This document shows positions 5,389-60,156 of a stretch of 64,000 nt of DNA, one piece after another. The notes beneath the pieces were generated by a model. That model worked only from the letters and a program-made list of their open reading frames with translations, was not told the origin of the DNA and made no database searches. The stretch spans positions 42,504-106,503 of IMG/VR virus record IMGVR_UViG_3300040801_002731. The stretch is one strand, 5' to 3'. The stretch's first letter is position 1; each line of letters opens with the position of its first letter. This stretch comes from a virus. Made by a program: the position numbers and the translations under genes.

Positions 5389-5408
5389 ATACGTCAGGAT
5401 TGATTGAT
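5389..5408. promoter_or_regulatory. Dispersed operator palindrome, copy 1
   Basis: The right half TGATTGAT is perfect and the left half (ATACGTCA) is degenerate; the centre is GGAT. It lies between the nuclease stop and the WGR gene start, so it would control the ligase-end part of the operon. Confidence 0.6.
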
Positions 5409-5432
5409 CTTTTCACGGAAATGAGAGCCCGC

Positions 5433-5834
5433 TTAGTCGCAGTAGCGGGGCAGCGTCATGTGTCGCGCTTGGGGCTGTTCCGAGGTCGCGTAAAGACCGC
5501 CCGAGAAGGCAGGGCAATCTCGTCCCAAGCCAGCCTCGACCAGCGCCTCCGCAACGTCCTGATTGCCCAGCCAGCAACGTGCGACGATCCTGTCGTGAGA
5601 TCGTCCCTTGCGCGCGCAGACAACCACCTGCCCCAAAACAAGACGCTCCATGAACGCCTTGGCCTGCTCTCCACCAGGCTCCCGCAGCTCCGGCGCGTGA
5701 AGTCCCCACAGCCGCACCGGCTGCCCGCCGACGATGAACGTGTCCCCGTCCCGGACGTGCCCGACCCTGCCCGATAGACCATCAGCGGCAGCGGGTGTTG
5801 CGACCAGCACGAGACAGAGAAGAATGCGCAGCAT
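5433..5834 (-). CDS. Secreted thermonuclease (staphylococcal nuclease-like)
   Basis: 133 residues. The N-terminus MLRILLCLVLVATPAAADG is a classical signal peptide. The SNase core follows: GHVRDGDTFIVGGQPVRLWGLHAPEL with the Ca-binding Asp and first catalytic Arg, GEQAKAFMERLVLG, and GRSHDRIVARCWLGNQDVAEALVEAGL with the second Arg. The family hydrolyses DNA and RNA to 3'-phosphates. The start is the internal ATG; the open frame extends further upstream but the leader begins there. An exported nuclease inside a phage replication operon is unusual; it might degrade DNA outside the cytoplasm or act after entry. Confidence 0.87.
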   Translation of the reverse strand: MLRILLCLVLVATPAAADGLSGRVGHVRDGDTFIVGGQPVRLWGLHAPELREPGGEQAKAFMERLVLGQVVVCARKGRSHDRIVARCWLGNQDVAEALVEAGLGRDCPAFSGGLYATSEQPQARHMTLPRYCD

Positions 5835-5841
5835 GATGGCC

Positions 5842-6912
5842 TCAACGATAAGGGTTTCGCAGGCGCCAACGAACGACCTGAGCCGATGTGACGGGCGCGG
5901 CCTGCCAGATGGCCTGACGCACCACGTCCGGCCTGGCCTCGTTGGGGTCGAGCCCCTTCGGCAGCAGGGCAACTTTGGCACGCAGGCCGATCTTGCCCAA
6001 CAGCAGACCGGCATCCGCCGCTGCGTTCAGCGCGGCGGTCTCCCCGTCCCAACAGAAGACCACCTCCTCCACACCGCGCCGGCGTAGCTCCAGAAACGCG
6101 CCGAGCTGATCCGAACCGCCGCCGGCCGACAGATGCTTGCCGAAGGTGCCGATGGGCACGATATCGCGCAGCTCGGGCTCCCCATCGACGGCGACCTTCA
6201 GCGCCATGACGTCGAAGGCGCCTTCGCCGACCACCACCCGCCTCGTGCGGATCACGTTGTGGCCGTTGTAGAGGAACCGCCCGGTGGCCGGCAGCGTGGC
6301 AGGGAACAGGTATTTCCGGTCGCTCGTGCCGGTGACGTCACGGCCCTGGAAGGTGACCAGCTTGCCGTCGAGATCGAACACCGGGATGATGACCCGCTGC
6401 CCGAAATTCTGACCGCCGCGGCTGCCATCCTCCTTGGTGTAGTTCCACCAGGCGTCCTCGCAGTAGCGCAGGTGAAAGTAGCCGGCCATGTCGGCGTCAA
6501 TGCCTCGCCTTTCCAGATAGACGAGATTCTGCCCCTCGTAGGGCAGAGGGATCGAGGCGGGCAGGTGGATCTTGTCGGGAATCTCCACGGCGGCCGTGGT
6601 GGTGCGCCGCGGGCGCCAGCCCTGCTCGTGCAGGACTTCCCGGATATGCCGGAAGGTTTCGGCGTTGTTCATCCCGGTGTGGTGCTGGATGAACCCCCAT
6701 TTGCTGAAGGTTTCCGAACACACGAAACAGTTACCGAGACCGGTCTCGGCGTTGATGTAGGTGCGCCAGCGGCTGTCGCCGCACGCCGGGCACTCCTTCA
6801 GATTCAACTGTGCGCCGTTCTGACCGGACGTGACCTTGTAGGTTAACCCCTCGCGCTCGGCATAGAACTCCATGTCGAGCCGGTTCAGCATCTCCCTGAG
6901 ATCGTCAGCCAT
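5842..6912 (-). CDS. DNA primase (CHC2 zinc finger plus TOPRIM, T7 gp4 primase-like)
   Basis: 356 residues. The N-terminal zinc ribbon has two CxxC pairs (ECPACGDSRW at about 37-46, NCFVCSE at about 57-63). The TOPRIM domain shows VVVGEGAFDVMAL with the catalytic Glu and VVFCWDGETAALNAA in place of the DxD element. It lacks a helicase domain, unlike T7 gp4; a DnaB-like helicase is encoded separately at 7460-8833. Expected role: RNA primer synthesis on phage DNA. The start ATG overlaps the previous stop (TGATG). Confidence 0.88.
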   Translation of the reverse strand: MADDLREMLNRLDMEFYAEREGLTYKVTSGQNGAQLNLKECPACGDSRWRTYINAETGLGNCFVCSETFSKWGFIQHHTGMNNAETFRHIREVLHEQGWRPRRTTTAAVEIPDKIHLPASIPLPYEGQNLVYLERRGIDADMAGYFHLRYCEDAWWNYTKEDGSRGGQNFGQRVIIPVFDLDGKLVTFQGRDVTGTSDRKYLFPATLPATGRFLYNGHNVIRTRRVVVGEGAFDVMALKVAVDGEPELRDIVPIGTFGKHLSAGGGSDQLGAFLELRRRGVEEVVFCWDGETAALNAAADAGLLLGKIGLRAKVALLPKGLDPNEARPDVVRQAIWQAAPVTSAQVVRWRLRNPYR

Positions 6913-7385
6913 CAGAACAGGCCCCAGCTCGGATTGGCCGCAACCGCGGCCGCAATGTCGATGGGCGGGGGCGGCACGGGCATTTCGTCAGAGTCCGCCA
7001 GTCGGGACTCATGGGGCTCGAAGCCATCCGTCAGCACAAACTTGGCGTCCAAGTCCTCCAGGCGCAGCCCAACCTTGGGATAGAGTGCATACTCTCCCGC
7101 GAGAGGAGCCGGCTCCATGCGCAGAACGATCAGCGGCGGCAGATCCTTACCCCGCTTGTCCTTGCGCCCGCGCCTGATCTCGTCGATGACGTAGGAATGC
7201 TCCGACGATCGAATGCCGGACAGGTCCTTCCAGGCCGTCTTGTCGTCATCCTCCCGGAAGTGCGGTAGCAGCCATTTGCCCGTCTTTTCGCCCTTGCCGC
7301 GAAGAAACTTGGATGCGGCCGGAACATGATCGCCCAGATACTTCAGCGACATTCCGACGCGCAGCTTGTCCAGACTTAAAGCCAT
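6912..7385 (-). CDS. Hypothetical replication-operon protein with AANPxWGxF tail
   Basis: 157 residues, no family recognised. GGAGAG lies 6 nt before the ATG. The body is mixed alpha/beta and rich in Lys/Arg (FLRGKGEKTGKWLLPHFREDDDKTAWKDLSG). A proline-rich, acidic linker (SDEMPVPPPPID) leads to the terminal VAANPSWGLF. A folded domain, flexible acidic linker and conserved aromatic tip recall single-stranded-DNA-binding proteins, and no SSB is otherwise recognised in the window, so this is a candidate functional analogue. That is inference only. Confidence 0.6.
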   Translation of the reverse strand: MALSLDKLRVGMSLKYLGDHVPAASKFLRGKGEKTGKWLLPHFREDDDKTAWKDLSGIRSSEHSYVIDEIRRGRKDKRGKDLPPLIVLRMEPAPLAGEYALYPKVGLRLEDLDAKFVLTDGFEPHESRLADSDEMPVPPPPIDIAAAVAANPSWGLF

Positions 7386-7459: not shown

Positions 7460-8833
7460 TCATTCACGCCCAAGAACCCGCTTGATGAACTTCATCTTGG
7501 AGCGGTCCTGAGAAATGCGCAGCGTGAAGCCATCTTCCGTGTTACGACTGGCCGCAAAGAAAAGCCGAGCTTCGCCCGAGTCCTTTTCTTCCTGGGTTGC
7601 GTTGATCGAAATCACGATGTCGGCGATGCGGATCTTGTTGAAATCTTCCGCAACGTCCGTCATCGACGACGTGACCTTTTTCGCTCCTTCGCGGTTTGTT
7701 TGTGTGGCCGTCAGGAGCGCCAGGTTGTATTCCTGAGCGATGCCGCGCAGATCCACATAGATCGAGCGGAAGTTGGCGATATCGCTGTCGGTGCGGAACT
7801 CCGGCGCCATCAGGTCGGCGTAGTCGACCACCACCAGGTCGAACAGGATGCCCCGTGCCCGGTAGTTCTCCAGCAGCCGGCGCAGCTTCGACGGCTTCAG
7901 AGTGCCCGTCGGATACTCGTGGATCTTCAGCAGACCGGACCTGGCCTTCAGCCGGTCGATCTCTGTCCGCACCTTGTGCGGGCTGTCCTTGAGTGTCTTG
8001 ATGGCCGTGTCCGTAATGTTGGCGTCCAGACGATCGGCGTAGATCGCGGCTGACACCTCAAGGGTCACGATCAGGACGTTGTGCCGCTTGGGGGACAGGG
8101 CCGCGGCCTAGGCGAACTCGCCCAGAGCCAACGACTTGCCGCCTTTGGCCGGACCCATGATCAGCGACAGCTCCCGAAGGCCCCAGCCCCGGTGATAGAG
8201 CAGCGCATCCAGCTCCTCGACCCCGGTGGTAATGCCGGTCGGCACCTTCGTCCCCGACATGATCGAGACTCGCGTTTCCGTGCGACCCTCGATCTGCTCG
8301 AAGAAGTCATAGCCGGTGTCGGCCTCGCCCTCGCCCACCAGCAGGGCCTCGCGCATGGCCTTCTCGATACCCGCGAAGTCGCCCTTCTCCAGACGACCGA
8401 CGCTTTCGATCATGGCCTTCTCAACAGCCCTCTCGCGCGCAAACTCAGCGACCTTCTCGACCGCAAAGGCGCCGCCGGAGATGTCCGCTGCATAGACCGA
8501 TCGCACGGCATCCTTGACCTCGGCCAGAATGTCACTGCGGATCTTCTTGGAGGCGACGGCCTCCTTCAGCAGCACGCCAAGAGCTGCCTTGTCGGGCGGA
8601 GACCGGAACCGGGCGTAATGCCCCCGGATCAGGTCGAACAGCGCGGCCTCGCCGACGTTGGTCAGATAATCGGGCTTGATCAGCCCCTCGGTGCGCGCCA
8701 GGAACGTCGGGTCCCGAAGCGCCAGGGCTACGATCTTGGTCTGGAAATCCTCGTTGAAGCCGTAGGCGACCTCGATTTCTTCGCCGCCAGCCACCTCGTC
8801 TTCGGTTTCGATCTCCGCTGCGACTACCGTCAT
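7460..8833 (-). CDS. DnaB-like replicative helicase interrupted by an in-frame amber codon
   Basis: The frame encodes 457 codons with a single internal TAG at 8110-8108 (codon 242). The first part has a DnaB-type N-terminal region and Walker A (GPAKGGKSLALGEFA), then TAG. The same frame continues AAALSPKRHNVLIVTLEVSAA without any shift, with Walker B LVVVDYADL, the ATQTNR motif and FFAASRNTEDGF. All helicase motifs are present and correctly spaced, so one codon change separates two halves that are useless alone. The start ATG overlaps the preceding stop (ATGA). Options are readthrough or suppression, a real mutation, or a base-call error. TAG also ends normal genes here (terminase, scaffold), so general recoding is unlikely. 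Confidence 0.87.
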
Positions 8834-9102
8834 GCTCGGACCTCAAAGCTCATGAGGGCGGATTTGAAATAGATCACCACGTCGCCGGCGCGGTTGCCGC
8901 CGGTCAGCTCCAACTTCAACGTGAACTGATCTGCGGCGAGCAGCCGGCCTTCCCGCGTCTTGACGTCGGAACCAGCTACGATCTCAATCCGCACCTTCTT
9001 GCCGATGGCGTGAGAAAGGTCATTCTGGTGCGACCAACTCCGACCCGGCTTGGCCTTCTGTCGCGCTGCGGTCGACATCATCTGAGACGGAACGGCTCCC
9101 AT
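8830..9102 (-). CDS. Hfq/Sm-like small RNA-binding protein (candidate)
   Basis: 90 residues with GGAGG 5 nt before the ATG. Residues 32-88 (IGKKVRIEIVAGSDVKTREG, RLLAADQFTLKLELTG, DVVIYFKSALMSFEV) follow the five-strand Sm pattern: G..V.I....G....G.L...D.F.L.L, then a hydrophobic VIYFKSALMSF resembling the Sm2 motif of Hfq (YKHAISTV). The N-terminus is basic. Hfq-like proteins bind RNA as hexameric rings; here it could tune phage or host mRNA. It overlaps the helicase start by 4 nt. The assignment is from pattern only; another small beta-barrel fold is possible. Confidence 0.55.
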   Translation of the reverse strand: MGAVPSQMMSTAARQKAKPGRSWSHQNDLSHAIGKKVRIEIVAGSDVKTREGRLLAADQFTLKLELTGGNRAGDVVIYFKSALMSFEVRA

Positions 9103-9136
9103 GCTTTCCTCCAGGGTGTGTGATTCTGCGTAAATG

Positions 9137-9156
9137 ATATATCAAAGTTGATTGAT
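9137..9156. promoter_or_regulatory. Dispersed operator palindrome, copy 2
   Basis: Right half TGATTGAT perfect, left half ATATATCA, centre AAGT. It lies in the 88-bp gap upstream of the Hfq-like gene and helicase operon. Confidence 0.65.
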
Positions 9157-9951: not shown

Positions 9952-10827
9952 TTAGCCGGCCTTGAGCATCCGCATCAGACCGGCGTTGTCGCTTTCGCTT
10001 TCATTGACGATATAGCGCTCAGACGTTGGCGCTGCGCTTTGAGGTGCCGGGTTTCGATAGGCGAGAATGACCGCCTTACACATGCCGGAGCGCACGATGT
10101 CCTCCGGGCTGAACTCAACAGCGCCAACGCCCGGCACATCACGCATCCGACGCCAGGCGTCCAGCAGCCCGGACAGGTCCTGTCTCGGCAGGTCACACTG
10201 CTCAGGGTCGCCGTTCAGGACCATCTTGCAGTTCTCGCCGAAGCGAGAGAGCAGCAGCTTGTGCTGGGCGACGGTGGCGTTCTGCATTTCGTCGGCGATG
10301 ACCCAGCAGTTGCTGAAGGTCTCGCCGCGGATGAACTCAAGGGGCGCTACCTGAATCCGACCATGCTCGATCAGGTAGTTGGCGTGTCCGGTGCCGAGGA
10401 ACTGCTCCAGGGCCGCACGCACCGGTCGGAAGTAGTTGGCGAACTTCTCCTCCAGGGTGCCCGGCAGGTAGCCCATGCTCTGACCGGACTCGATGGCCGG
10501 GCGGGTGCAGACGATACGCTCGATCTCGCCGGCTTCAAAAGCCCGACAGGCACGGGCCACGCTCCACCAGGTCTTGCCGGTGCCGGCCACGCCCAGTCCG
10601 AAGACGAGATCCTTGGTGGTGATCAGTTGGTCATAAAGGGCCTGGTTTGCCGTGCGAGGCTTCAGGGTTTTGGGATCCAGGCGGGTCGGCGCCCGACGTG
10701 TCTGCTCCCGTGCCTCGCGCTCGGCAACAAGCTCAATAAGGGGCATGTTGTTCTTTCTCTCCAGTCGCGCAGCCTTGCGTTGTTCCCGTGTCTCGGCCTT
10801 GGTGGGGCGATTGATCCTGCGAGCCAT
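9952..10827 (-). CDS. PhoH-family ATPase
   Basis: 291 residues. A basic N-terminal 60-residue extension (KAETREQRKAARLERK) precedes the PhoH P-loop domain: Walker A LGVAGTGKTWWSVA, VCTRPAIESGQSMGYLPGTLEEKF, Walker B CWVIADEMQNATVAQ, and MVLNGDPEQCDLP. PhoH proteins are common in phages and resemble superfamily 1 helicases; an RNA-related role has been proposed. It is the first gene after a strong terminator and has its own AT-rich leader at 10862-10920. Confidence 0.9.
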   Translation of the reverse strand: MARRINRPTKAETREQRKAARLERKNNMPLIELVAEREAREQTRRAPTRLDPKTLKPRTANQALYDQLITTKDLVFGLGVAGTGKTWWSVARACRAFEAGEIERIVCTRPAIESGQSMGYLPGTLEEKFANYFRPVRAALEQFLGTGHANYLIEHGRIQVAPLEFIRGETFSNCWVIADEMQNATVAQHKLLLSRFGENCKMVLNGDPEQCDLPRQDLSGLLDAWRRMRDVPGVGAVEFSPEDIVRSGMCKAVILAYRNPAPQSAAPTSERYIVNESESDNAGLMRMLKAG

Positions 10828-10995: not shown

Positions 10996-11015
10996 ATCAA
11001 TCAATCTTGATCTAC
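10996..11015. promoter_or_regulatory. Dispersed operator palindrome, copy 3
   Basis: Left half ATCAATCA perfect, right half TGATCTAC, centre ATCT. It lies between the phosphoesterase stop and the terminator, so it is not at an obvious promoter for a downstream gene. Confidence 0.6.
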
Positions 11016-13147: not shown

Positions 13148-13707
13148 AGCAGGTAGCTCCGGGCACGCCGGGTCCAGCCGTTCAGATACTTTCGGCTGGC
13201 CGGACGGCGATGCGCGATCCCCTTCAGGTAATCGAGGCGGGTCAGCACCAGATCGTTGTTGACCTTGACGACGCCAAAGCGCTCGATGGCGCCTTTGACG
13301 GCGCGCAGCGTGTTGGGGCCGATCTTTCCGTCCATCGTGATCGGATGGCCGAGCAGACAGACGACACGCTGGAGAGACTTCACGGCTCGAACCGGGCCGC
13401 TGTTGACACCGAAGTCGGTCATCTGCGGCTGCAACAGCTCGGGCAGCTCGTCAAACCGAGGCGTTAGGTAAAAATCCTGGTAGAAGGCATCAAAGGCGAT
13501 CTCGGGCGTCACGCGCCGGATGTCGTCGATATCCACGTCGCCGTCACCGTCCAGGTCGAACATCAGGCCGCGGCTCTTGGCATATCGAAGCGAAACGCCG
13601 TGCTTGGTCGCGCCGCCGGGGTCGTCCGGGTCGTTGACGAACCCACCTTCGGTCTCGATGATCTCGTTGATAATATCCTGAATGGCTTCAGATGGCGTTT
13701 GGTTCAT
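13144..13707 (-). CDS. GH108 endolysin with internal EF-hand and peptidoglycan-binding domain
   Basis: 187 residues from the ATG at 13707 (ATGA overlap with the previous stop). EGGFVNDPDDPGGATKHGVS is the GH108 muramidase signature, with the catalytic Glu in EGG. Inserted after it is DLDGDGDVDIDD, a canonical EF-hand/dockerin calcium loop. The C-terminal half (LLQPQMTDFGVNSG, MDGKIGPNTLRAV) is the companion peptidoglycan-binding region. There is no signal peptide, so release needs the holin. The EF-hand suggests calcium-stabilised folding or activity. Confidence 0.9.
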   Translation of the reverse strand: MNQTPSEAIQDIINEIIETEGGFVNDPDDPGGATKHGVSLRYAKSRGLMFDLDGDGDVDIDDIRRVTPEIAFDAFYQDFYLTPRFDELPELLQPQMTDFGVNSGPVRAVKSLQRVVCLLGHPITMDGKIGPNTLRAVKGAIERFGVVKVNNDLVLTRLDYLKGIAHRRPASRKYLNGWTRRARSYLL

Positions 13708-14087: not shown

Positions 14088-14107
14088 ATCAATCAAAGTT
14101 GATTGAT
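14088..14107. promoter_or_regulatory. Dispersed operator palindrome, copy 4 (perfect), at the lysis promoter
   Basis: ATCAATCA-AAGT-TGATTGAT, a perfect 16-bp inverted repeat. On the minus strand a TATAAT box (14106-14111) abuts it, with a weak TGGAAT -35 element 17 bp further. A bound protein would cover the -10/start region and block the lysis genes. It also overlaps the 3' end of the peptidase gene. Confidence 0.8.
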
Positions 14108-20582: not shown

Positions 20583-20623
20583 ATGATACAAGGAGACCAA
20601 AAGATCAGTCAATCTTGATTGAT
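20583..20623 (-). promoter_or_regulatory. Operator copy 5 with embedded promoter for the fibre operon
   Basis: The operator is ATCAGTCA-ATCT-TGATTGAT at 20604-20623. On the minus strand it contains TTGACT (20607-20612), followed after 18 bp by TATCAT (20583-20588); transcription would start about 20 nt before the fibre ATG at 20555. A protein on the palindrome would cover the -35 element. Confidence 0.75.
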
Positions 20624-26752: not shown

Positions 26753-27137
26753 AGAAACCAATGACCCTCTTGTCCCAGAAGCTCAGACGTTCGATGCAGA
26801 CGCCGCCGGTGCCTTCCCAGGTGTGAACGAAGCGGTCATGTCGGAGCGTCATGCCGACATGCGCCCCGTAGCCCCTGATGCGGAACAGAACGGTGACGCC
26901 AGGGCGTTGTTCGACCGACACCCAGTCCTTCAGCCCAACGTCGACCAGACGCGCGATCTCGGCGATCTTGGTCGGACTGCGGACGTCCGGGATGATCACG
27001 CCTCGACGCCGATAAAGCTCCATGAGGAGACCGTAACAGTCGAAGGTGTCCGGCCCGCGTCCGCCGTAGGCGAAGGGCCTGCCGATCAGATCCAGTATAA
27101 CGGACTCGGAAAAATCAGTCAGCTTTGATTTATCCAT
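26718..27137 (-). CDS. NlpC/P60 tail-tip peptidase (lambda K-like)
   Basis: 139 residues. The NlpC/P60 core reads PFAYGGRGPDTFDCYGLLMELYRRRGV with catalytic Cys, and later GAHVGMTL with His. Such virion peptidases open the cell wall during DNA entry. The gene is in the lambda L-K-J order. Its first codons lie inside an operator-promoter (27094-27133) that would drive the tip and fibre genes. Confidence 0.87.
   Translation of the reverse strand: MDKSKLTDFSESVILDLIGRPFAYGGRGPDTFDCYGLLMELYRRRGVIIPDVRSPTKIAEIARLVDVGLKDWVSVEQRPGVTVLFRIRGYGAHVGMTLRHDRFVHTWEGTGGVCIERLSFWDKRVIGFYDFAGHAAAAH
27094..27133 (-). promoter_or_regulatory. Operator copy 6 with embedded promoter, inside coding sequence
   Basis: The operator ATCAGTCA-GCTT-TGATTTAT (27114-27133) covers the start codon of the NlpC gene. 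On the minus strand CTGACT (27117-27122) is followed after 17 bp by TATACT (27094-27099), so transcription would begin inside the peptidase gene and serve the J-like gene. Confidence 0.68.
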
Positions 27138-32896: not shown

Positions 32897-32916
32897 ATCA
32901 GTCAAACTTGATTGAT
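32897..32916. promoter_or_regulatory. Dispersed operator palindrome, copy 7
   Basis: ATCAGTCA-AACT-TGATTGAT, one mismatch from the palindrome. It is centred in the 81-bp gap between major tail protein stop and the G gene. TTGACT lies in it, but no -10 box follows at the right distance. Confidence 0.72.
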
Positions 32917-33807: not shown

Positions 33808-33847
33808 ATGATACCAAGTCGGAAAGAATCAATCAAACTTGATTTAT
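33808..33847 (-). promoter_or_regulatory. Operator copy 8 with embedded promoter for the tail tube gene
   Basis: The operator is ATCAATCA-AACT-TGATTTAT (33828-33847). On the minus strand TTGATT (33831-33836) and TATCAT (33808-33813) are 17 bp apart, and the start would fall about 33 nt before the tube ATG. This is the clearest case of the palindrome covering a -35 element. Confidence 0.78.
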
Positions 33848-37210: not shown

Positions 37211-37250
37211 GTAAATCAATCCTGATTGACTCTCAAGCGCAATCAGGATT
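37211..37250. promoter_or_regulatory. Operator copy 9 plus an inverted half-site
   Basis: The palindrome GTAAATCA-ATCC-TGATTGAC at 37211-37230 is followed by an inverted partial copy. AATCCTGATTG (37218-37228) and CAATCAGGATT (37240-37250) form an 11-bp perfect stem. The second arm runs into the capsid stop codon. It may act as a paired operator or a transcript hairpin after the capsid gene. Confidence 0.68.
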
Positions 37251-38243: not shown

Positions 38244-38250
38244 GCCAAAA

Positions 38251-38270
38251 ATCAATCAAGATTGATTGAT
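38251..38270. promoter_or_regulatory. Dispersed operator palindrome, copy 10 (perfect, extended)
   Basis: ATCAATCA-AGAT-TGATTGAT; the inverted repeat extends to GCCAAAA/TTTTGGC, making a 34-bp palindrome (38244-38277). The A-run before and T-run after could also give terminator activity after the scaffold gene. Confidence 0.82.
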
Positions 38271-40954: not shown

Positions 40955-40974
40955 ATAAATCAATTTTGATTGAA
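40955..40974. promoter_or_regulatory. Dispersed operator palindrome, copy 11
   Basis: ATAAATCA-ATTT-TGATTGAA in the 58-bp gap between terminase stop and the portal start. A TTGATT/AATGAT pair 17 bp apart would start transcription after the ribosome site, so no promoter is claimed. Confidence 0.68.
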
Positions 40975-42275: not shown

Positions 42276-42907
42276 TCGACCTCCATGGCCGCCGCGATAT
42301 CCTCGACGCTCAGATCGCCAGCCAGCAGAGCATCTTCGTCATCCTGCTGTCGCAGCGCCTCGATCTCGTTTTCCGTCAGATCGCGAATGACCAGTTCCGG
42401 CAGCGTCTGATCGTCGACCTCGTTCTCCATGTCGAGAATGGCCCAGCGCTCCTGCCGCCCCATGGCAATGGTATTCATTGCCGTGCGCAGCGCCTTCAGA
42501 TCGCCAGCGACGACACTGAACGGCTTATGGTCTCGCTTCGCCTCGACGAGAACCTGCATGGTCATCTTCTGAATACCCTCGACCCAGGTGTAGCTTTGGT
42601 CGCGGGTTTCAGCGATGCGCTTGGCTCGCAGTTCGGCGCCGGACAAAGCCTCCTCGACCGCGGCATCCTTCAGGGCCTCCGAAACAGCCTTCGCGGTCTC
42701 GCCGGCACGCTTACCCTTGACGGCGCCGCGACGCTTCAGACCCTTGGAAAGCGCGGGCGCGGAAATTCCAAAGCGCGCGGACAGATCATCCAGGCGCACC
42801 TCGCCGCGCTCCCACAGATCCACGACTTCGACCCACTGGGCCTCTGTCAGCCTGTGGCTCTCCTTGTCGGGCGTTTCTGTCTCGGTTTCGGCTTTTAGAT
42901 CAGTCAT
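42272..42907 (-). CDS. terS: Terminase small subunit
   Basis: 211 residues from the ATG at 42907, which lies inside operator copy 12. It has an N-terminal HTH for DNA recognition (QWVEVVDLWERGEVRLDDLSARFGISAPALSKGLKRRG), a helical oligomerisation centre and an acidic C-terminus (DEDALLAGDLSVEDIAAAMEVE) likely to contact TerL. Confidence 0.83.
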   Translation of the reverse strand: MTDLKAETETETPDKESHRLTEAQWVEVVDLWERGEVRLDDLSARFGISAPALSKGLKRRGAVKGKRAGETAKAVSEALKDAAVEEALSGAELRAKRIAETRDQSYTWVEGIQKMTMQVLVEAKRDHKPFSVVAGDLKALRTAMNTIAMGRQERWAILDMENEVDDQTLPELVIRDLTENEIEALRQQDDEDALLAGDLSVEDIAAAMEVE

Positions 42908-42918
42908 TTTTGATTGAA
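42899..42918. promoter_or_regulatory. Dispersed operator palindrome, copy 12, over the terS start
   Basis: ATCAGTCA-TTTT-TGATTGAA. The CAT complement of the terS ATG lies within it (42905-42907), so a bound protein would stop transcripts coming from the promoter at 42996-43025. Confidence 0.68.
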
Positions 42919-42995: not shown

Positions 42996-43040
42996 AGTGT
43001 AGAGGGTCACGAAAGCGAGAGTCAATCAATTTTTACTTAC
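42996..43040 (-). promoter_or_regulatory. Terminase promoter with operator copy 13
   Basis: On the minus strand TTGACT (43020-43025) and TACACT (42996-43001) are 18 bp apart, about 80 nt before the terS start. The overlapping operator GTCAATCA-ATTT-TTACTTAC (43021-43040) has a degenerate right half. Confidence 0.62.
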
Positions 43041-47282: not shown

Positions 47283-47463
47283 CGAAAGTCTCTCCGCGGA
47301 AGTTCTCTGTGATGAACCTGCACGCCTCGTTGAAATCGAGGGTTTCTCCGCGCGTCTCGAAGTTCTCGCCAACGGCGCAGGTCACACAGTGATAGGTGCC
47401 GATCAGTGCGCATTCGTTACAGTCATCGAACTTGCCACGGCGAAGCCGGCGAGGTTCAGTCAT
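47275..47463 (-). CDS. Small CxxC protein
   Basis: 62 residues. Two CxxC pairs, DDCNECALIGTYHCVTCAVG, suggest a zinc ribbon. The start codon is inside operator copy 14. It lies between the two ParB-like genes. Confidence 0.63.
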   Translation of the reverse strand: MTEPRRLRRGKFDDCNECALIGTYHCVTCAVGENFETRGETLDFNEACRFITENFRGETFDE

Positions 47464-47474
47464 TTTTGATTGAT
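47455..47474. promoter_or_regulatory. Dispersed operator palindrome, copy 14
   Basis: TTCAGTCA-TTTT-TGATTGAT, overlapping the stop of ParB-like 2 and the start of the CxxC gene. Confidence 0.65.
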
Positions 47475-48135: not shown

Positions 48136-48155
48136 ATCAATCAAAATTGATTTAT
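48136..48155. promoter_or_regulatory. Dispersed operator palindrome, copy 15, between divergent operons
   Basis: ATCAATCA-AAAT-TGATTTAT in the 68-bp divergent gap, so one site could control both the ParB/GNAT cassette and the helicase operon. Confidence 0.75.
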
Positions 48156-49947: not shown

Positions 49948-49967
49948 ATCAATCAATTTTGACTGAC
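49948..49967. promoter_or_regulatory. Dispersed operator palindrome, copy 16, upstream of the RHH genes
   Basis: ATCAATCA-ATTT-TGACTGAC, 25 nt before the first RHH gene. A consensus TTGACA lies at 49931-49936 and places the operator over the -10 region (CAATTT, weak), the layout expected for an autoregulated repressor. Confidence 0.72.
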
Positions 49968-51077: not shown

Positions 51078-51097
51078 ATCAATCAGGATTGACTTAT
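51078..51097. promoter_or_regulatory. Dispersed operator palindrome, copy 17
   Basis: ATCAATCA-GGAT-TGACTTAT; its right end covers the ATG of the next small gene. Confidence 0.68.
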
Positions 51098-51194: not shown

Positions 51195-51534
51195 CCCAAA
51201 CGCCGATCCTCGGCTTCGCGTGCATCTGCGCACGGCCGGCGTCAAGCACCACCATATCGCCTGGCTGCGTCGGGACGCCGCTCAATGCTTCGACTGCCTG
51301 CCCATCGACGTTCCGGCGCCGGGCGGCATGATCAGTCTGCCGGTGGTCATGGACGGCATCACCATTGGTGATGCCGCTGCCAAGGCCATTCGCCACCCCT
51401 GGCCGTTCTACGCGCGTGTTGAGGAGCTTCGCTCCCACGGCGTCTGGATCGCCTCTTGGCCGATCGCCCTTGTCGATATCGAAAACCTGGCTGGCTTGTT
51501 GTGGTCGGGTGAGACCGAGGCGGTTCGTCGATGA
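51178..51534 (+). CDS. Hypothetical protein
   Basis: 118 residues (MIVKDDPNADPRLRVHLRTAG; AWLRRDAAQCFDCLPIDVPAPGGMISLPVVMDGITIGDAAAKAI). No family recognised. It overlaps the next gene by 4 nt, so the two are translated together. Confidence 0.6.
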   Translation: MIVKDDPNADPRLRVHLRTAGVKHHHIAWLRRDAAQCFDCLPIDVPAPGGMISLPVVMDGITIGDAAAKAIRHPWPFYARVEELRSHGVWIASWPIALVDIENLAGLLWSGETEAVRR

Positions 51535-53589: not shown

Positions 53590-53675
53590 TCCGGGTGGCG
53601 GGAGTCGAACCCGCACACTCTCTTTGAGCATCCGATTTTTAAGATCGGCGCGTCTACCAATTCCGCCACACCCGG
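53590..53675 (-). tRNA. tRNA-Leu (anticodon UAA)
   Basis: On the minus strand the acceptor stem is CCGGGTG/CACCCGG, the D-arm GCGGAATTGGTAGACGCGCC, the anticodon stem CCGAT/ATCGG with loop CTTAAAA (anticodon TAA), then a long class II variable arm and the T-arm GCGGGTTCGACTCCCGC. The discriminator is A; no CCA is encoded. It decodes UUA, a codon rare in GC-rich genomes. It is not an amber suppressor. Confidence 0.93.
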
Positions 53676-53835: not shown

Positions 53836-56800
53836 ATGCAGTTAGGCGAGATTTTAGAGAACTACCGCACCGCCTCGACCAACGAGCGCGAGAAGGGTGA
53901 ATATTTCGAGCGCTTGGTTCGCGTGTTCATCACCAATGATGACATCCAGAAGCAGTTCTACTCCGCCGTCGTCCCCTTCGCTGAATGGGCAAAGCAACAG
54001 GGCTGGAGCAATGCGGACACCGGGATCGACCTGGTGGCCACCCTTGCGGACGGGTCGGGGTATGCGGCCATCCAATGCAAGTTCTACGCCCCCAACCATG
54101 TGATCCAGAAGCCCGACATCGACAGCTTCATTTCTGCGGCCTCGAATGACCTCTTCACCCGCCTGATCATCGCGGACACCACCCGGAAGGACTTCGGGCG
54201 CAACACCAAGGAAACCCTGGACAAGCTCTCGAAGGACTGGAACCGGATCGGTATCAATGAGCTTGAGGCCAGCCGGATCGACTGGTCGCAATTCATCCGC
54301 ACCGGCAACGTCACCCTGGCCCCCAAGAAGCAGCTTCGGGATCACCAGCGGGATGCGCTGACAGCCGTCACGGAAGGTCTGGCTGAGGCAGATCGCGGCA
54401 AGCTCATCATGGCTTGCGGAACCGGCAAGACCTTCACCGCCCTGCGGGTCGCCGAGACCATAGCAGGCAAAGGCAAGCACGCGCTCTTCATGGTCCCGTC
54501 GCTGGCGCTGATGTCTCAGACCGTGCGCGAGTGGAAGAACGACTGTCAGGAAGAGTTCACGGCCTTCTCAGCCTGTTCGGACATCAAAGTCGGGCGCAAC
54601 GCCGATGCCGATAGCCTTGATCTGAATGTCCATGACCTCGCCTTCCCGGCCACGACAGACCCGGAAAAACTGGCCCGCCAGGTCAAGGATGCGCCTGCGG
54701 ACAAGATGACAGTGGTCTTCTCGACCTATCATTCCATCGACGTTCTGACGCGCGCGCAAAAGAACCACGGCCTGCCCGAGTTCGATCTGGTGATCTGCGA
54801 CGAGGCGCACCGGACCACAGGCGTTACCCTGAAGGATGAGGATGACAGCAACTTCGTCCGCATCCACAACAACGACTATGTGAAGGCTCGAAAGCGCCTC
54901 TACATGACGGCCACCCCCCGCATTTTTGGGGACGCTGCGCGCCGCAAGGCCGATGACCATGAGGCCGAGCTGGCCTCGATGGATGACGAGACCAAGTTTG
55001 GCAAAGACCTGTTCCACCGGGGATTTGGCTGGGCCGTCGAGAATGAACTGCTGACCGACTACAAGGTCGTGGTGCTCGCCGTGGATGAGGGGCTGATTTC
55101 CAGCACCATTCAGAGCCGCCTCAAGGAAGGCGCGGAACTGACCCTGGACGACGCCACCAAGATCATCGGATGTTACAAGGCCCTGACCAAGAGTGACCTC
55201 AAGGGCGATCTGACCTTCGATCCGCAGCCCATGAAGCGCGCGCTGGCCTTCTGCCATAGCATCAAGAAGTCTCTGGTGATCAAAGAGGAGTTTACCCGCG
55301 TTGTCGATGAATACACCGGCAACGACTTCTTCGGTGACGCGGCGCCTCTGCACACTGAGGTGCGCCATATTGACGGCAGCTTCAACTCCAGCGCCCGAGA
55401 AGAAATGCTGAACTGGCTCAAGGCCGATGCAGGCGATGATACCTGCCGCATCCTGACCAACGCCAAGGTATTGTCCGAGGGCGTGGACGTGCCGGCCCTC
55501 GACGCCATCATGTTCATGCACCCACGCAAGAGTCAGATCGACGTGGTGCAATCTGTGGGGCGCGTCATGCGCCGTGCGGAAGGCAAGAAGCTCGGCTATG
55601 TGATCCTGCCAGTGGCTATCCCGCCCAACACAAAGCCCGAGGACGCCCTGAACGACAACGAGCGGTATCAGGTTGTCTGGCAAATCCTGAACGCGCTCCG
55701 TGCCCATGACGAACGCCTCGACGCTCGCATCAACCAGGCCGAACTGGGCGAGGATATCAGCGACAAGATCGAGCTGGTGCGCATCTCATCCAATACAGAG
55801 CTGAGAGAGCTGACCGCTGTGGTCGATGACTTCGCCACGAGCAAGACCAAGGCCGAGAAGACGGGCGCAGGCATTGGGCAGGAGAGCCGAGAGCGGCGGA
55901 CCTATGGCGAGCCGGATGCTCAAGGGTCTTTCGTCTTCGACGAGTTCACCCGCGCCATCATGGCCAAGATCGTCCAGAAGTGCGGAACCCGCGAATACTG
56001 GGATTCTTGGGCCAGAGACATCGCCAAGATTGCCCAGACACATATCACGCGCATCACCACCATCGTCGGCCAGCCGGGGGCTGAACGAGACGCCTTCCTC
56101 GCCTTCCTCGAAGAGCTACAGGACGACCTGAACCCCTCGATCACCGAGGCCGAGGCCATCGAGATGCTGGCGCAGCACCTCATCACGCGCCCGGTCTTTG
56201 ACGCTCTGTTCAAGGGCAGCCAGTTCACCAGAGCGAACCCCGTCTCGTGTGCGATGGAGACGGTGCTTGGGCAACTCCACCAACACAATCTCGCCAAAGA
56301 GGCGGAGAGCCTCGCCAAGTTCTACGCCAGCGTCGAACGCCGCGCTGCCGATGTGGTGACAGCCCACGGGCGGCAGGAGCTGATCTACAAGCTCTATGAC
56401 AGCTTCTTCAAAGGGGCCTTTCCGGTTCTGACGCAGCGGCTTGGCATCGTCTACACGCCGGTCGAGGTGGTGGATTTCATCATCCATTCGGTCAATGACG
56501 TGTTGAAGGCGCAGTTCGGCCAGACCCTCGGGGCCGAGGGTGTTCATATCCTCGACCCCTTCACCGGCACCGGCACCTTCATCACCCGGCTACTGCAATC
56601 TGGTCTGATCGCGCGCGAAGAGCTGGCGCACAAATACCGGAAGGAAATCCACGCCAACGAGATCGTCCTGCTGGCCTATTACATCGCCGCCATCAACATC
56701 GAGACGGTCTATCACGAGCTGATGCAGGGCGCGCTGTCGGAGGACGCGCCCTATGAACCCTTCAAAGGCATCCTGCTGACCGACACCTTCCAGATGTATG

Positions 56801-58728
56801 AGCAGGAGCGCGACATGGTGGCGAACCTGCTGCCGGACAACTCCGAGCGCCGGACGCACCAGAAGGCACTGGACATCCGCGTCATCATCGGCAACCCGCC
56901 CTATTCGGCGGGGCAGGGCAGCGCCAACGACAATGCTGCGAACCTTGCCTATCCACGACTAGATGCCGCCATCCGCGACAGCTACGTCGCGCACTCCACC
57001 GCCACTCTCAAGAATTCTCTCTATGACAGCTACATCCGGGCGATCCGATGGGCGTCGGACCGGATCGGTGATGCAGGTGTCATGGCCTATGTCACCAATG
57101 CAGGCTGGGTGGACGGTAACGCCACCGACGGCCTTCGTAAATGTCTGGCGGACGAGTTCAGCGACCTCTATGTGTTCCATCTTCGGGGCAACCAGCGCAC
57201 TTCTGGCGAGTTGTCTCGCAAGGAAGGCGGCAAGATTTTTGGCTCTGGCAGCCGCGCGCCGATTGCGATCTCTGTTTTCGTCAAGAATCCCGCGGCCACC
57301 GAGCATGGGCGCATCCATTTCCACGACATCGGCGATTATCTCGACCGGAAGCAAAAGCTGGCGATTGTGCGAGATTTCGCATCTATCGACGGCATCACCG
57401 CCGCCAAGGGTTGGCAGCGCATCGCCCCCGACGAGAACAACGACTGGCTGGACCAAGTGGATCGGAGTTTTGACAGCTTTATACCAATCGGGAACAAGTC
57501 AAATGGGGAAGAGAAATCTGTTTTCTATAATTACTACAATGGTATAAAGACGGGTCGGGACGTCTGGTGCTTCAATTCATCTGCAACCCGTGGTTTTGAA
57601 AACGCTTGTCGCATGATCGACGTCTACGAGCGTGAAAGGCAACGGTATGCCGAGAGTGATGGAAACCAAGACGTCGAAGACTTCGTTGACAGTGACCCGC
57701 GCCAAATAAGCTGGAACAGGATTGCCCGGCAGAAGCTTGCGCGTAATATCTCCCTGCGCCACCAAGACGTGCGGGCTTTTCAAAACATATATCGGCCATT
57801 CTCGCCACAGCAAGCAAACCTGCTTCTTGAGATCAGCGATCTCGTAACACTGTTCAGGCGGGCTTTCCCGACGGGTGGTCAAGACAACCTTGTGATTGAT
57901 GTGTCGGGCGTTGGTTCAAAGTCTTTCACATCGCTGATGTTCAGTCGCCCGCCAAGCTTCGATGCGGTGGAAAAAGGCCAATGCTTTCCCCTCTACCTCT
58001 ACGAAGAAACCCAACCCGATGAGGGCCTCTTCGCCACAGGTGGAGATCAGGCAAGCGGCCTGACCCGACGCGACGCCATCACCGATGCAGGTCTCGCCCA
58101 TTTCCAAGCCTCCTATCCGGGGCAGGAGATCACCAAGGAAGACCTGTTCTATTACATCTACGGTCTGCTCCACTCCCCCGAATACCGCGACCGCTATGCC
58201 AACAACCTCGCCAAAGCCCTGCCACGCATCCCGGCAGTCCGCACCTATCATGACTTCGCCGCCTTCCGTGACGCAGGCCGCGCCCTGGGCGATCTGCATG
58301 TGAACTTTGAGTCCGTCGCGCCCTACATGGTGACCTTCAAGGAAGGCGATCACGCCCTCATCAACGAGGCGCAGGATGACCCCGTGAAGTTCTACCGCGT
58401 CACCAAGATGAAGTTCGGCGGCAAGGGCAAGGGGAAGGACAAGACCACCGTCATCTACAACGGCAACATCACCATGCAGAACATTCCGCTGGAAGCCTAT
58501 GACTATGTAGTCAACGGCAAACCTGCGCTGGAATGGGTGATGGAACGGCAGGTGGTGAAGCAGGACAAGGACAGCGGCATTGTGAACGACGCGAACGATT
58601 ACGCCAACGAGACGGTGGGCGATCCGCGCTATCCGCTCGATCTATTCCGCCGCGTGATCACCGTGAGCCTGGAGACCATGCGGATCGTGAACAGCCTCCC
58701 AGCACTCGACATTGAAGACCCAAAGTGA
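53836..58728 (+). CDS. Single-chain restriction-modification enzyme (type ISP/LlaGI-like)
   Basis: 1630 residues combining all R-M activities. The nuclease at the N-terminus is Mrr-like (DTGIDLVATLADGSGYAAIQCKFYA, about 58-82, with D and QxK). The SF2 translocase has LIMACGTGKTFTAL (about 190), ICDEAHRTTG (about 320), MTATPRIF and QSVGRVMRRAEGKKLGYVI. The N6-adenine methylase has LDPFTGTGTFITRLL (about 910) and VIIGNPPYSAGQ (about 1020). The rest is a target-recognition region. Type ISP enzymes translocate and cleave between head-to-head sites. No other R-M gene is adjacent, consistent with a one-protein system. It probably protects the lysogen against other phages. Confidence 0.92.
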   Translation: MQLGEILENYRTASTNEREKGEYFERLVRVFITNDDIQKQFYSAVVPFAEWAKQQGWSNADTGIDLVATLADGSGYAAIQCKFYAPNHVIQKPDIDSFISAASNDLFTRLIIADTTRKDFGRNTKETLDKLSKDWNRIGINELEASRIDWSQFIRTGNVTLAPKKQLRDHQRDALTAVTEGLAEADRGKLIMACGTGKTFTALRVAETIAGKGKHALFMVPSLALMSQTVREWKNDCQEEFTAFSACSDIKVGRNADADSLDLNVHDLAFPATTDPEKLARQVKDAPADKMTVVFSTYHSIDVLTRAQKNHGLPEFDLVICDEAHRTTGVTLKDEDDSNFVRIHNNDYVKARKRLYMTATPRIFGDAARRKADDHEAELASMDDETKFGKDLFHRGFGWAVENELLTDYKVVVLAVDEGLISSTIQSRLKEGAELTLDDATKIIGCYKALTKSDLKGDLTFDPQPMKRALAFCHSIKKSLVIKEEFTRVVDEYTGNDFFGDAAPLHTEVRHIDGSFNSSAREEMLNWLKADAGDDTCRILTNAKVLSEGVDVPALDAIMFMHPRKSQIDVVQSVGRVMRRAEGKKLGYVILPVAIPPNTKPEDALNDNERYQVVWQILNALRAHDERLDARINQAELGEDISDKIELVRISSNTELRELTAVVDDFATSKTKAEKTGAGIGQESRERRTYGEPDAQGSFVFDEFTRAIMAKIVQKCGTREYWDSWARDIAKIAQTHITRITTIVGQPGAERDAFLAFLEELQDDLNPSITEAEAIEMLAQHLITRPVFDALFKGSQFTRANPVSCAMETVLGQLHQHNLAKEAESLAKFYASVERRAADVVTAHGRQELIYKLYDSFFKGAFPVLTQRLGIVYTPVEVVDFIIHSVNDVLKAQFGQTLGAEGVHILDPFTGTGTFITRLLQSGLIAREELAHKYRKEIHANEIVLLAYYIAAINIETVYHELMQGALSEDAPYEPFKGILLTDTFQMYEQERDMVANLLPDNSERRTHQKALDIRVIIGNPPYSAGQGSANDNAANLAYPRLDAAIRDSYVAHSTATLKNSLYDSYIRAIRWASDRIGDAGVMAYVTNAGWVDGNATDGLRKCLADEFSDLYVFHLRGNQRTSGELSRKEGGKIFGSGSRAPIAISVFVKNPAATEHGRIHFHDIGDYLDRKQKLAIVRDFASIDGITAAKGWQRIAPDENNDWLDQVDRSFDSFIPIGNKSNGEEKSVFYNYYNGIKTGRDVWCFNSSATRGFENACRMIDVYERERQRYAESDGNQDVEDFVDSDPRQISWNRIARQKLARNISLRHQDVRAFQNIYRPFSPQQANLLLEISDLVTLFRRAFPTGGQDNLVIDVSGVGSKSFTSLMFSRPPSFDAVEKGQCFPLYLYEETQPDEGLFATGGDQASGLTRRDAITDAGLAHFQASYPGQEITKEDLFYYIYGLLHSPEYRDRYANNLAKALPRIPAVRTYHDFAAFRDAGRALGDLHVNFESVAPYMVTFKEGDHALINEAQDDPVKFYRVTKMKFGGKGKGKDKTTVIYNGNITMQNIPLEAYDYVVNGKPALEWVMERQVVKQDKDSGIVNDANDYANETVGDPRYPLDLFRRVITVSLETMRIVNSLPALDIEDPK

Positions 58729-59295
58729 CCAGCACCGTAGCGGGCCGGTTTGGGTCACCGTGAACGACTGAGCCCGTGGTGCAAAACAATCGCCCACGAG
58801 GAACTACGTCTGCGGCCCTCGGCCCTCCAAGGATGGACCGGGGGCAGCGCGTGGCTCTCCAAGGATGGATTGGGTGCGACGCCCGGCTCTCCAAGGACGA
58901 ATTGGGGGTGTGGTGAGCGATGGCGGCATCCGGGTCGTCAAGACGCATTTTCGCTAGGACATCGTATCGTTTCGCGTTCGCACTATCGCATGACGCGCAC
59001 GCTATCGCGAAGCGCGAGCGTTTCACTTGCGAGACGTGTTGTTGCGAATGCGTTTCGTCTTGCTCGTGCGCGCGTCTTGTTCGCTTTCGTAACATTGCGA
59101 CCGCGACATATTCAGCGTTCGCAACAATGCGACATTGATGCAACAGCATGTGTTGCATAAACGACATAGCGTTTAAACGCTCACAGAAGCGCGCACAAGC
59201 GCGAGTCTGTTTTGCGGTATCTGGTGCCCTATCAGATTCGCTTGCGCGTCTGTGACGCGCTATAGCGTGATTTGTGGACTATCTGACAAAAGGGA
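58729..59295. other. Non-coding gap with short repeats and GCGA/TCGC-rich DNA
   Basis: No convincing gene. From 58816 to 58895 the unit CTCCAAGGAtgga occurs three times. From about 58930 to 59270 the sequence is dominated by GCGA, TCGC, CGCG and GCGC words (for example CGCTATCGCGAAGCGCGAGCG). The composition differs from the R-M gene before it. Confidence 0.5.
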
Positions 59296-59324
59296 AAAGG
59301 CCGGACCATTGCGGCCCGGCCTTT
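59296..59324 (-). terminator. Rho-independent terminator
   Basis: AAAGGCCGG and CCGGCCTTT form a 9-bp stem with an 11-nt loop; on the minus strand it is followed by T-rich TCCCTTTT. It ends the gene at 59332. Confidence 0.75.
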
Positions 59325-59331
59325 GTTGCGT

Positions 59332-59982
59332 TTACACTGCGAAACGATTCGCCAGATATTCGGCGAAGTCGTTTTCATTTATAGTGTAGTATTCACGATT
59401 CATGTCGTCTTTGGCTTTTGTCCAGAAGCCAAAAGTAACCAAAGCCGACATTGCGGGGCTTCCCTGTCCGTTTGCCGTTCCCTGACTTGCGTTATTTCGC
59501 TTAAACAAGCGACACAACTTTGCATCAAGTGTCAACTTGTCAGAAACGCTTGCAAGCCCATAGTGATGATAAAACGTGATCCCCTCTTTCTTTGCCACAA
59601 GCGCATTGTGGATAATTGCGCTTGCATGTTTGTTGATTGCGCTAACACTATCGAAAGCGCAAGCCACGCCAATATTTGCGCAATATTTCATTGCGTAAAC
59701 ATTATATCGCGTGCCGGCCTTGACTTGACGGTTCACAAAGTCGGCCGGAATGTTTGCAGCGATGCAAGCGCGTGCAAACGAGACTTTCGACATTTGCGCC
59801 AGATTCGCTTTCAAAGTATCCTGAATGTTTGCGTTTCCAGGATCCTTTGTCGTTTCATACTCTTTGCGCGCTTCCATTTGCTGGACAAGCGCGCTTGTCC
59901 ACTCTTTCGCTTGTTCGTCAGTGATAGACTGGACGGAAGCGATGAAAGAGGGAATGTTTGCGTTGGTGGTCTTGCGTGCCAT
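59332..59982 (-). CDS. Hypothetical protein of the right-hand region
   Basis: 216 residues (MARKTTNANIPSFIASVQSITDEQAKEWTSALVQQMEARKEYETTKDPGN; MSKVSFARACIAANIPADFVNRQVKAGTRYNVYAMKYCANIGVACAFDSV). No family recognised. It uses many more A/T bases than the phage block and contains many GCGC/TTGCGC words. The C-terminus (LVTFGFWTKAKDDMNREYYTINENDFAEYLANRF) looks like a winged-helix fragment. It has operator copy 18 upstream and a terminator after it. Confidence 0.65.
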   Translation of the reverse strand: MARKTTNANIPSFIASVQSITDEQAKEWTSALVQQMEARKEYETTKDPGNANIQDTLKANLAQMSKVSFARACIAANIPADFVNRQVKAGTRYNVYAMKYCANIGVACAFDSVSAINKHASAIIHNALVAKKEGITFYHHYGLASVSDKLTLDAKLCRLFKRNNASQGTANGQGSPAMSALVTFGFWTKAKDDMNREYYTINENDFAEYLANRFAV

Positions 59983-60115
59983 TGTCTTGTTTCCTTGTTT
60001 GTGTGTTTGCGTTGTTTTTCCAAACGCAACAGCTTTTTCATTCTGTGCGCGTTCGGTTTTTTCACAATGTCAAAGAGCGTATCGCGTTGTTTGTTTTGTC
60101 GTTCGCGATGACTCT

Positions 60116-60156
60116 TTTTTACTGGATTTCCCAAAAGTCAGTCAATCCTGATTTAT
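60116..60156 (-). promoter_or_regulatory. Operator copy 18 with possible promoter
   Basis: GTCAGTCA-ATCC-TGATTTAT (60137-60156). On the minus strand TTGACT (60140-60145) and TAAAAA (60116-60121) are 18 bp apart, 130 nt before the gene at 59982. It shows that this region belongs to the same regulatory unit as the phage genes, beyond the R-M gene. Confidence 0.6.

Follow-up and report, generated by a model that had tools for sequence, protein, structure and literature searches.

The window, i.e., the whole stretch of DNA analyzed here (64,000 nt), makes up 60% of a 106.5-kb virus record and carries both phage and plasmid genes. Specifically, the record encodes SSU5-like siphovirus structural proteins (capsid, portal, terminase, and a J-like tail protein) together with plasmid functions (a RepA_C initiator [1.4e-22], a ParA-like protein, and an RHH protein). 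The capsid is 56% identical to that of SSU5, 71% to that of Rhizobium RHph_N1_10, and 60–63% to those of Acinetobacter plasmids. By these structural and replication/partition genes, the record is a member of the SSU5-type phage-plasmids (SSU5, Cyrano, pKpn, and AB groups), with which it shares a related capsid (56–71% identical), a large siphovirus gene set, a plasmid replicon, and ParA. Its relatives are complete plasmids of isolates, and the virus is probably able to persist as a plasmid as well, replication in the host being inferred. The RepA_C-type initiator is of its own type, unmatched in the other genomes compared, and a near-identity search of phage records with the first 25 kb of the window returned no match. 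A related capsid gene was found in 890 plasmid records, mostly from Klebsiella, Escherichia, Acinetobacter, and Enterobacter; antibiotic-resistance genes occur on some phage-plasmids of this kind (PMC9600943).

Dispersed palindromes in the window

A 20-bp palindrome, ATCAATCA-N4-TGATTGAT, composed of two half-sites (RTMARTCA) whose centers lie about one helical turn apart, recurs throughout the window (Table 1). Allowing up to three mismatches, we found 18 matches in the window vs 0.21 expected from dinucleotide shuffles (largest shuffle, 2). A sequence-only reading had listed 18 sites, all of which are present; 17 of our matches correspond to them, and the remaining one, at 38247, is site 38251 in a register shifted by 4 bp. 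The two copies described as perfect (14088 and 38251) were confirmed. The claim that most others carry one to three mismatches fails for site 43021, which has five mismatches to that consensus and still scores 24.3 bits on our refined matrix (core, RTMARTCARNNYTGAYTKAY). Across the 106.5-kb record, there were 30 matches at ≤3 mismatches (0.2 expected) and 36 refined-matrix sites (null, 0).

Table 1. Predicted operators and associated genes (window positions unless prefixed G or L; strand of target genes in parentheses)
Feature	Position	Strand	Remarks
Plasmid replication initiator gene, RepA_C	start at 1..319; whole gene G000:C1:41896-42822	-	Pfam PF04796 1.4e-22; no operator upstream
Proposed XRE repressor gene, outside window, just beyond rep gene	G000:C1:41240-41680 (L003:1240-1680)	-	HTH_3, PHROG
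Two weak operators at repressor gene	G41757-41776, G41815-41834		ranks 33 and 35 of 36
Tyrosine recombinase gene	1406..2065	+	Pfam PF00589 4.9e-13; no operator upstream
Operator	5389..5408		upstream of WGR-domain gene 4822-5331 (-)
Operator	9137..9156		upstream of 8830-9102 (-)
Operator	10996..11015		upstream of P-loop gene 9952-10827 (-), PhoH-like judged by position in relatives
Perfect operator	14088..14107		touches TATAAT -10 box (TATAATCAATCA...), 13 bp before gene 13704-14075 (-)
Operator	20604..20623		-35 TTGACT inside, TATCAT 18 bp on; tail-fibre gene 18195-20555 (-)
Operator	27114..27133		-35 CTGACT inside, TATACT 17 bp on; tail genes 26718-27023 and J-like 21413-26752 (-)
Operator	32897..32916		upstream of 32521-32838 (-)
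Operator	33828..33847		-35 TTGATT inside, TATCAT 17 bp on; Ig-domain tail protein gene 32920-33768 (-)
Operator	37211..37230		upstream of 36630-37157 (-)
Perfect operator	38251..38270		upstream of major capsid gene 37249-38151 (-)
Operator	40955..40974		upstream of portal gene 39338-40924 (-)
Operator	42899..42918		over start of HTH (TerS-like) gene 42272-42907 (-)
Operator	43021..43040		upstream of HTH (TerS-like) gene 42272-42907 (-); weaker TTGACT-18-TACACT
Operator	47455..47474		junction of ParB-like gene 47456-48124 and next gene (-)
Operator	48136..48155		between divergent ParB-like gene (47456-48124, -) and helicase gene (48193-49707, +)
Operator	49948..49967		upstream of small genes 49993-50351 (+), second one RHH-like
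Operator	51078..51097		upstream of 51178-51534 (+)
parA and RHH gene, plasmid partition	52461..53368	+	no operator directly upstream
Operator	60137..60156		no target gene assigned

Placement on promoters and conservation among relatives

The sequence-only reading had placed the sites at gene boundaries or over start codons, as held for the record, where 31/35 to 36/37 sites (depending on gene calls) are intergenic, coding sequence making up ~86% of the genome, and for site 42899, which overlaps a start. It had also described promoters whose -35 element is part of the palindrome, which we confirmed at 20604, 27114, and 33828 and, in a weaker version, at 43021. Across many genomes, the -10 box more commonly abuts the palindrome (as at 14088) or sits immediately upstream of it. 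Among 814 sites in 21 genomes, 734 were mostly intergenic and ~10% lay inside predicted genes, the distance from site center to start codon being mostly 20–60 bp. At sites whose start codon was <35 bp away, TATAAT-like boxes clustered in the 10 bp preceding the palindrome (63 vs ~7 per 10-bp bin); at more distant sites, they clustered at the 3′ edge of the palindrome or 34–52 bp on. The rep, parA, and recombinase genes had no operators.

Next to these positional patterns stands conservation: 26 of 28 relatives each carry 21–55 dispersed sites that are variants of a single palindrome, and only nickie and ANB28 have none. Operator presence agreed between orthologs of the window phage and Rhizobium N1_10 (Fisher, 8e-7) or Acinetobacter (1e-6), and operator 33828 was retained in 8/8 relatives compared; operator positions relative to orthologs were not significantly kept between the window phage and Cyrano or SSU5. 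Equal frequency in host DNA had been named as a refutation of the network, and this was not observed, since all 16 matches in a 4.2-Mb host genome fell on its phage-plasmid contig and none in the ~4.1 Mb of other DNA.

Taken as a claim about a genome-wide operator network, the sequence-only reading survives every sequence test applied, including the shuffled-sequence comparison it had called for, and is supported by the excess over chance, the intergenic and promoter-overlapping placement, the conservation upstream of orthologs, the absence from the host chromosome, and the co-variation with a DNA-binding protein described below; there are no experimental binding or repression data.

The candidate repressor and its correlation with the operator

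XRE and RHH proteins had both been suggested as binders, and our results support the former and not the latter. The best candidate is a 146-aa XRE protein encoded 1.3 kb left of the window and adjoining the plasmid Rep gene, its binding being inferred from sequence. It matches HTH_3 below the curated cut-off (18.7 vs 23 bits) as well as PHROG transcription-regulator/repressor families, and its sequence profile gives a match to 8bny (E 1e-5), an immunity repressor, and weak ones to 434 Cro/CI. An AlphaFold model of a close relative (L333) predicts an all-helical fold containing the HTH (mean pLDDT, 89); a Foldseek search with this model gave no match below E 0.001. We detected no S24 C-terminal domain and no Pfam domain beyond the HTH in the 146-aa protein, so that it does not meet the description of the CI-type SOS-cleavable class.

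The XRE ortholog is absent where the motif is absent and present in every motif-bearing relative except the partial contig G021 and SSU5, which has kept its operators and lacks the repressor gene. Three repressor-like genes of SSU5 were checked as binders: 116 has a weak HTH_60 match, 120 has no domain, and 121 was rejected as a flagellin-repressor homolog. A weak operator lies upstream of the XRE gene in nearly all genomes, with no clear one found there in MethAMS5 and Cyrano. Independent support for the XRE protein as the repressor comes from its Cyrano ortholog, CYRAN_45, which has been published as a putative repressor and whose expression in the lysogen is 10-fold above background (PMC9928086).

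The residue at the start of the XRE recognition helix tracks operator base 7, with Lys/Arg accompanying C and Asn/Gln/Ser admitting A. Specifically, K/R occurred with C in 10/10 genomes and N with A in 8/9, AciB being counted as N (its residue is Asn or Gln depending on the alignment). In an enlarged set, the comparison of helix residue and base 7 gave medians of 0.92 vs 0.60 C (p = 3e-8). Exceptions were G007, which combines Asn with mixed C/A, and several metagenomic loci in which Asn or Ser goes with C and sites are few. On the capsid tree, most pairings gave three concordant and no discordant pairs, too few for significance, and a tree from the short repressor was too weak; the correlation thus rests on few independent changes. 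We take the operator-specific residue to be the equivalent of 434 Gln28 and lambda Gln44, based on our own alignment. Matched pairs of predicted repressor and site occur across a large element family in soil bacteria as well as in Acinetobacter, Klebsiella, and E. coli.

Rival readings, known systems, and proposed mechanism

Could the sites instead be stoperators as in mycobacteriophage L5, at which a repressor bound within transcription units blocks elongation rather than initiation? Their spacing (~1 per 3 kb, at gene boundaries inside long co-directional gene blocks) resembles that in L5, and Cluster A phages likewise have up to ~30 dispersed sites per genome, with site consensus and repressor diverging together between relatives (PMC6550527). 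However, L5 sites are 13 bp long, asymmetric, and aligned with the direction of transcription, and most are not at promoters (PMC6550527), whereas the sites here are symmetric and many overlap a core promoter at fixed spacing. We consider this reading very unlikely, and the L5 comparison drawn by the sequence-only reading is weakened accordingly; a minority of sites without a recognizable promoter could still work as stoperators. There is equally little to recommend a different phage protein (TerS-like HTH, RHH partition protein, or ParB-like) or a parS-like centromere. The genome does encode several DNA-binding proteins and a partition locus, but the TerS-like protein also occurs in the motif-free nickie and ANB28, the RHH protein was not detected in gammaproteobacterial members carrying the motif, and ~40 promoter-placed sites are unlike a centromere.

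An activation network, with the palindrome as promoter element for a phage-encoded sigma-70-like factor, is suggested by the conservation of such a gene in alphaproteobacterial members and by half-sites that look like -35 hexamers. It too is very improbable: the gene was not detected in the motif carriers Cyrano, Klebsiella pJN2-26, SSU5, and AciB, the element is symmetric, and the -10 box may precede, touch the end of, or follow it. An RNA hairpin (processing site, terminator, or translation control), as inverted repeats near start codons might suggest, can be all but ruled out. G-U and A-C mispairs are equally common in the transcribed orientation (255 and 251), indicating that RNA pairing is not selected, and sites upstream of -10 boxes would be untranscribed. 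Among known site networks, the CtrA sites of alphaproteobacterial phages have a different motif (TTAA-N7-TTAA; PMC9437464), and alphaproteobacterial LexA boxes gave a few isolated matches with no clear link to the repressor gene.

We favor the reading in which a single lysogeny (immunity) repressor, most likely the small XRE protein, uses the palindromes as its operators in an SSU5-type phage-plasmid. What is established at the sequence level is the sites (with their excess, placement, and conservation), the repressor distribution, and the residue-base correlation; binding, dimerization, and repression are inferred, no member having binding data or, for operator targets, expression data. While the element is a plasmid, each 20-bp palindrome would hold a repressor dimer that blocks RNA polymerase at 30–40 separate lytic promoters, silencing replication, recombination, nucleotide metabolism, capsid, portal, and tail functions, while rep, parA, and the recombinase would stay on. 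Its own promoter carries one or two weak operators, through which the repressor would cap its level, and loss or inactivation of the repressor would free all lytic promoters together.

The nearer functional parallel is P1 C1 rather than L5, since the sites are palindromic and promoter-overlapping. P1 is likewise a phage-plasmid in which one repressor, limiting its own synthesis, acts at ~20–40 operators dispersed at lytic promoters. It differs in having 22 asymmetric 17-bp operators (PMC8546580) of another sequence, ATTGCTCTAATAAATTT, which the 20-bp palindrome does not match, and the proposed repressor here is an XRE helix-turn-helix protein of ~146 aa. The XRE-type HTH is shared with the lambda, 434, and P22 repressors and SaPI1 Stl; in contrast to these, our protein has no recognized peptidase domain and ~36 operators, not a few. 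We found no earlier description of an operator network of SSU5-type elements in the literature searched, and where a recent phage-plasmid review deals with regulation, it mentions no operator system for these elements (PMC11652158).

A bolder reading, which as a whole is no more than possible, is that the ~40 operators form a copy-number-sensitive sink. As the element replicates, its new copies would titrate the repressor, which is small and weakly autoregulated, and lysis would depend on the number of genome copies per repressor; shifts in repressor and operator (TCA to TAA) would give rise to distinct immunity groups among the phage-plasmids of alpha- and gammaproteobacteria, and SSU5 would be a repressor-loss escapee.

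With a predicted repressor, site, 30–40 targets, and residue-to-base rule, immunity and induction in the SSU5-type family are now directly testable. Natural repressor/site pairs of graded specificity would be useful for asking how a network shifts its specificity at 40 sites together, and the repressor/operator system may explain why some relatives act as purely lytic phages.

A dispersed palindrome in the record and its relatives

The sequence-only reading had placed 18 palindromes in the window, almost all at gene boundaries, and both claims held. A pattern search of the window with up to three mismatches gave 18 matches against 0.21 expected, one of them a shifted register of the site at 38251; the site at 43021 has five mismatches, yet fits the refined matrix. 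The window spans G000:C1:42504-106503 of a virus record, and sites extend to its left (30 in the whole record at up to three mismatches), and the refined element, RTMARTCARNNYTGAYTKAY, was found at 36 sites in the 106,503-bp record and at none in shuffled sequence. Depending on the gene call, 36 of 37 or 31 of 35 sites were intergenic.

A de novo search of relatives for over-represented gapped palindromes, from which the original motif was withheld, recovered AAGTAA-N4-TTACTT 30 times in Rhizobium phage V1VFA-S (0.001 expected), AGTCA-N4-TGACT 35 to 40 times in Methylobacterium AMS5 and two other relatives (G001 and G004), and AATCA-N4-TGATT 23 times in a further one (G019). These palindromes are the same element as that of the window. 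With matrices refined from such seeds, 26 of 28 relatives yielded 21 to 55 sites each (0 to 1 in shuffled sequence), and the remaining two, nickie and ANB28, yielded none. Across 21 genomes, 734 of 814 sites were mostly intergenic, with centers mostly 20 to 60 bp from the start codon. Taking the window phage as reference, operators preceded orthologous genes more often than chance: 14 of 18 were kept in Rhizobium phage RHph_N1_10 (Fisher, 8e-7) and, in an Acinetobacter plasmid, 12 of 15 (Fisher, 1e-6), while the excess was not significant for Cyrano and SSU5. Equal frequency in host or shuffled DNA would have refuted the network and was not seen: all 16 pattern matches in the 4.2-Mb Faunimonas genome lay on its 109-kb phage-plasmid contig. 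The Ancylobacter genome had three on the phage-plasmid contig and one elsewhere; the search pattern suits its operator variant less well.

A candidate repressor and its inferred specificity

The palindrome is probably bound by a 146-aa XRE protein, pending a demonstration of binding. Its orthologs occur in all motif-bearing relatives except G021 (a 51-kb partial contig) and SSU5. No ortholog was found in SSU5, nickie, or ANB28, all phage isolates; the motif too is absent from nickie and ANB28, but SSU5 keeps 29 sites. In Cyrano, an SSU5-like phage-plasmid found in E. coli LF82, CYRAN_45 sits in the slot that precedes the CobT-like gene; it is a published putative repressor, expressed 10-fold over prophage background (PMC9928086), and matches the XRE profile at 62 bits. 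The same slot in SSU5 has a tRNA as its sole annotated gene, and we infer that SSU5 arose through loss of the repressor. An operator stands upstream of nearly all repressor genes and is usually among the weakest of its genome (ranks 33 and 35 of 36 in the window phage record; 46 of 48, 40 of 40, and 34 of 34 elsewhere), with G019 and MethOryz among the exceptions. Autoregulation through this weak operator is likely, although binding is inferred.

A structure model of a close relative (mean pLDDT, 89) places the variable residues of GY-x-K/N/Q/S-x-N immediately ahead of the recognition helix, whose first residue is that Asn. By our alignment, the second variable residue is the counterpart of 434 repressor Gln28 and lambda CI Gln44. 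In all 10 genomes that have Lys or Arg at this position, base 7 of the operator was mostly C; it was mostly A in 8 of 9 with Asn, if AciB, which has Asn in one alignment and Gln in a larger one, is counted as Asn. Genomes with Gln had C at about three quarters of base-7 positions and A at the remaining quarter, and those with Ser were mixed. In an enlarged set (70 further loci), the median C fraction was 0.92 for Lys/Arg versus 0.60 for the rest (28 versus 26 loci; Mann-Whitney p=3e-8, without kinship correction). The capsid tree offered only three independent contrasts, and each pairing left them either concordant or neutral. G007 and a number of Asn or Ser loci that have few sites are exceptions, which suggests a further role for neighboring helix residues. 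An Ancylobacter rudongensis contig (L327-L332) encodes a Ser-type helix, GYPSQN, and has a different operator with G or A at base 7, possibly a third specificity class.

Promoter placement and rejected readings

We oriented sites by the downstream gene and counted TATAAT-like boxes in 10-bp bins. For sites <35 bp from the start codon, boxes clustered directly before the palindrome (63 in one bin versus about 7 in background bins); at 35 to 70 bp they fell at its 3′ edge, and for more distant sites further downstream, where a TTGACT-like −35 element can sit inside the palindrome. The signal at the edges is partly made of palindrome letters. The −35-in-palindrome arrangement proposed by the sequence-only reading held, for example, at site 33828. 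Such positions are classical ones for blocking polymerase, although binding here is inferred.

Other readings, headed ALTERNATIVES, were rejected. An RNA hairpin is contradicted by the equal numbers of G-U and A-C mispairs (255 and 251). Against a sigma-factor promoter, the phage-encoded factor went undetected in several motif-bearing genomes; a TerS site is countered by the presence of TerS in motif-less genomes. Partition fits poorly with about 40 promoter sites, and CtrA networks have another motif (PMC9437464).

A phage-plasmid and its proposed immunity system

The record is very likely an SSU5-type phage-plasmid. It encodes structural proteins typical of a large siphovirus (portal, capsid, scaffold, terminase, and J-like tail protein) and plasmid-type genes (RepA_C initiator, ParA with an RHH partner, and tyrosine recombinase). 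The capsid is 71% identical to that of RHph_N1_10 and 56% to that of Salmonella phage SSU5, and 890 plasmid records carry related capsids. The host, not actually known, is probably some alphaproteobacterium. Members differ in initiator type (RepA_C, RepC, and Rep3-type), yet their capsids are related, as are their repressors except in SSU5, which suggests that replicons may have been swapped.

Features discussed in the text
Feature	Location	Strand	Remarks
Site 14088	window		TATAAT runs into palindrome; start codon 13 bp on
Site 33828	window		TTGATT-17-TATCAT
146-aa XRE protein gene	G000:C1:41240-41680 (whole record)		1.3 kb left of window, adjoining rep
RepA_C initiator of record	L003:1896-2822		
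RepC initiator of relative	L142:9490-10593		
Rep3 initiator of SSU5	L258:9428-10492		
tRNA-Leu (TAA) gene	window 53590-53675	-	between parA operon and restriction-methylation gene
Restriction-methylation enzyme	window 53836-58728	+	1630 aa, single chain; PADLOC Type IIG model, 2125 bits
AAACAA-N-TTGTTT in SSU5	L257/L258 (SSU5 record) 81, 30449, 42729, 80773, 82468, 87625, 87941, 88370, 90740, 92759, 94525		

No operator lies directly upstream of rep, parA, the recombinase, or the large restriction-methylation gene, as expected of genes that the plasmid state requires; an operator is likewise missing from some other operon heads. The restriction-methylation enzyme may therefore be active in that state, conceivably as defense. 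A second dispersed palindrome, AAACAA-N-TTGTTT, occurs 11 times in SSU5, 9 times in Cyrano (L279-L284), and 11 times in Klebsiella pJN2-26 (L321-L326), with about 0.01 copies expected, often directly before start codons of accessory genes. It was not seen in searches of alphaproteobacterial members, and no binder is assigned.

In the relevant passages, nothing beyond a repressor or HTH gene is mentioned by papers on SSU5-type elements, by a review of phage-plasmids, or by the genome note for V1VFA-S (PMC9928086, PMC9600943, PMC11652158, PMC12509600), and the network is not described in the open-access literature searched; subscription literature and preprints were outside the scope. The sequence-only reading had likened the sites to L5 stoperators, from which they differ in occupying classical polymerase-blocking positions, as L5 stoperators do not (PMC6550527). 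Closer in mode of working is P1 C1 immunity, with its 22 dispersed operators (PMC8546580), whereas the operator here is a palindrome of another sequence and the repressor an XRE protein without a recognized peptidase domain. Although binding is still to be shown, the network likely resembles known dispersed-operator immunity while differing from it in both operator and repressor type.
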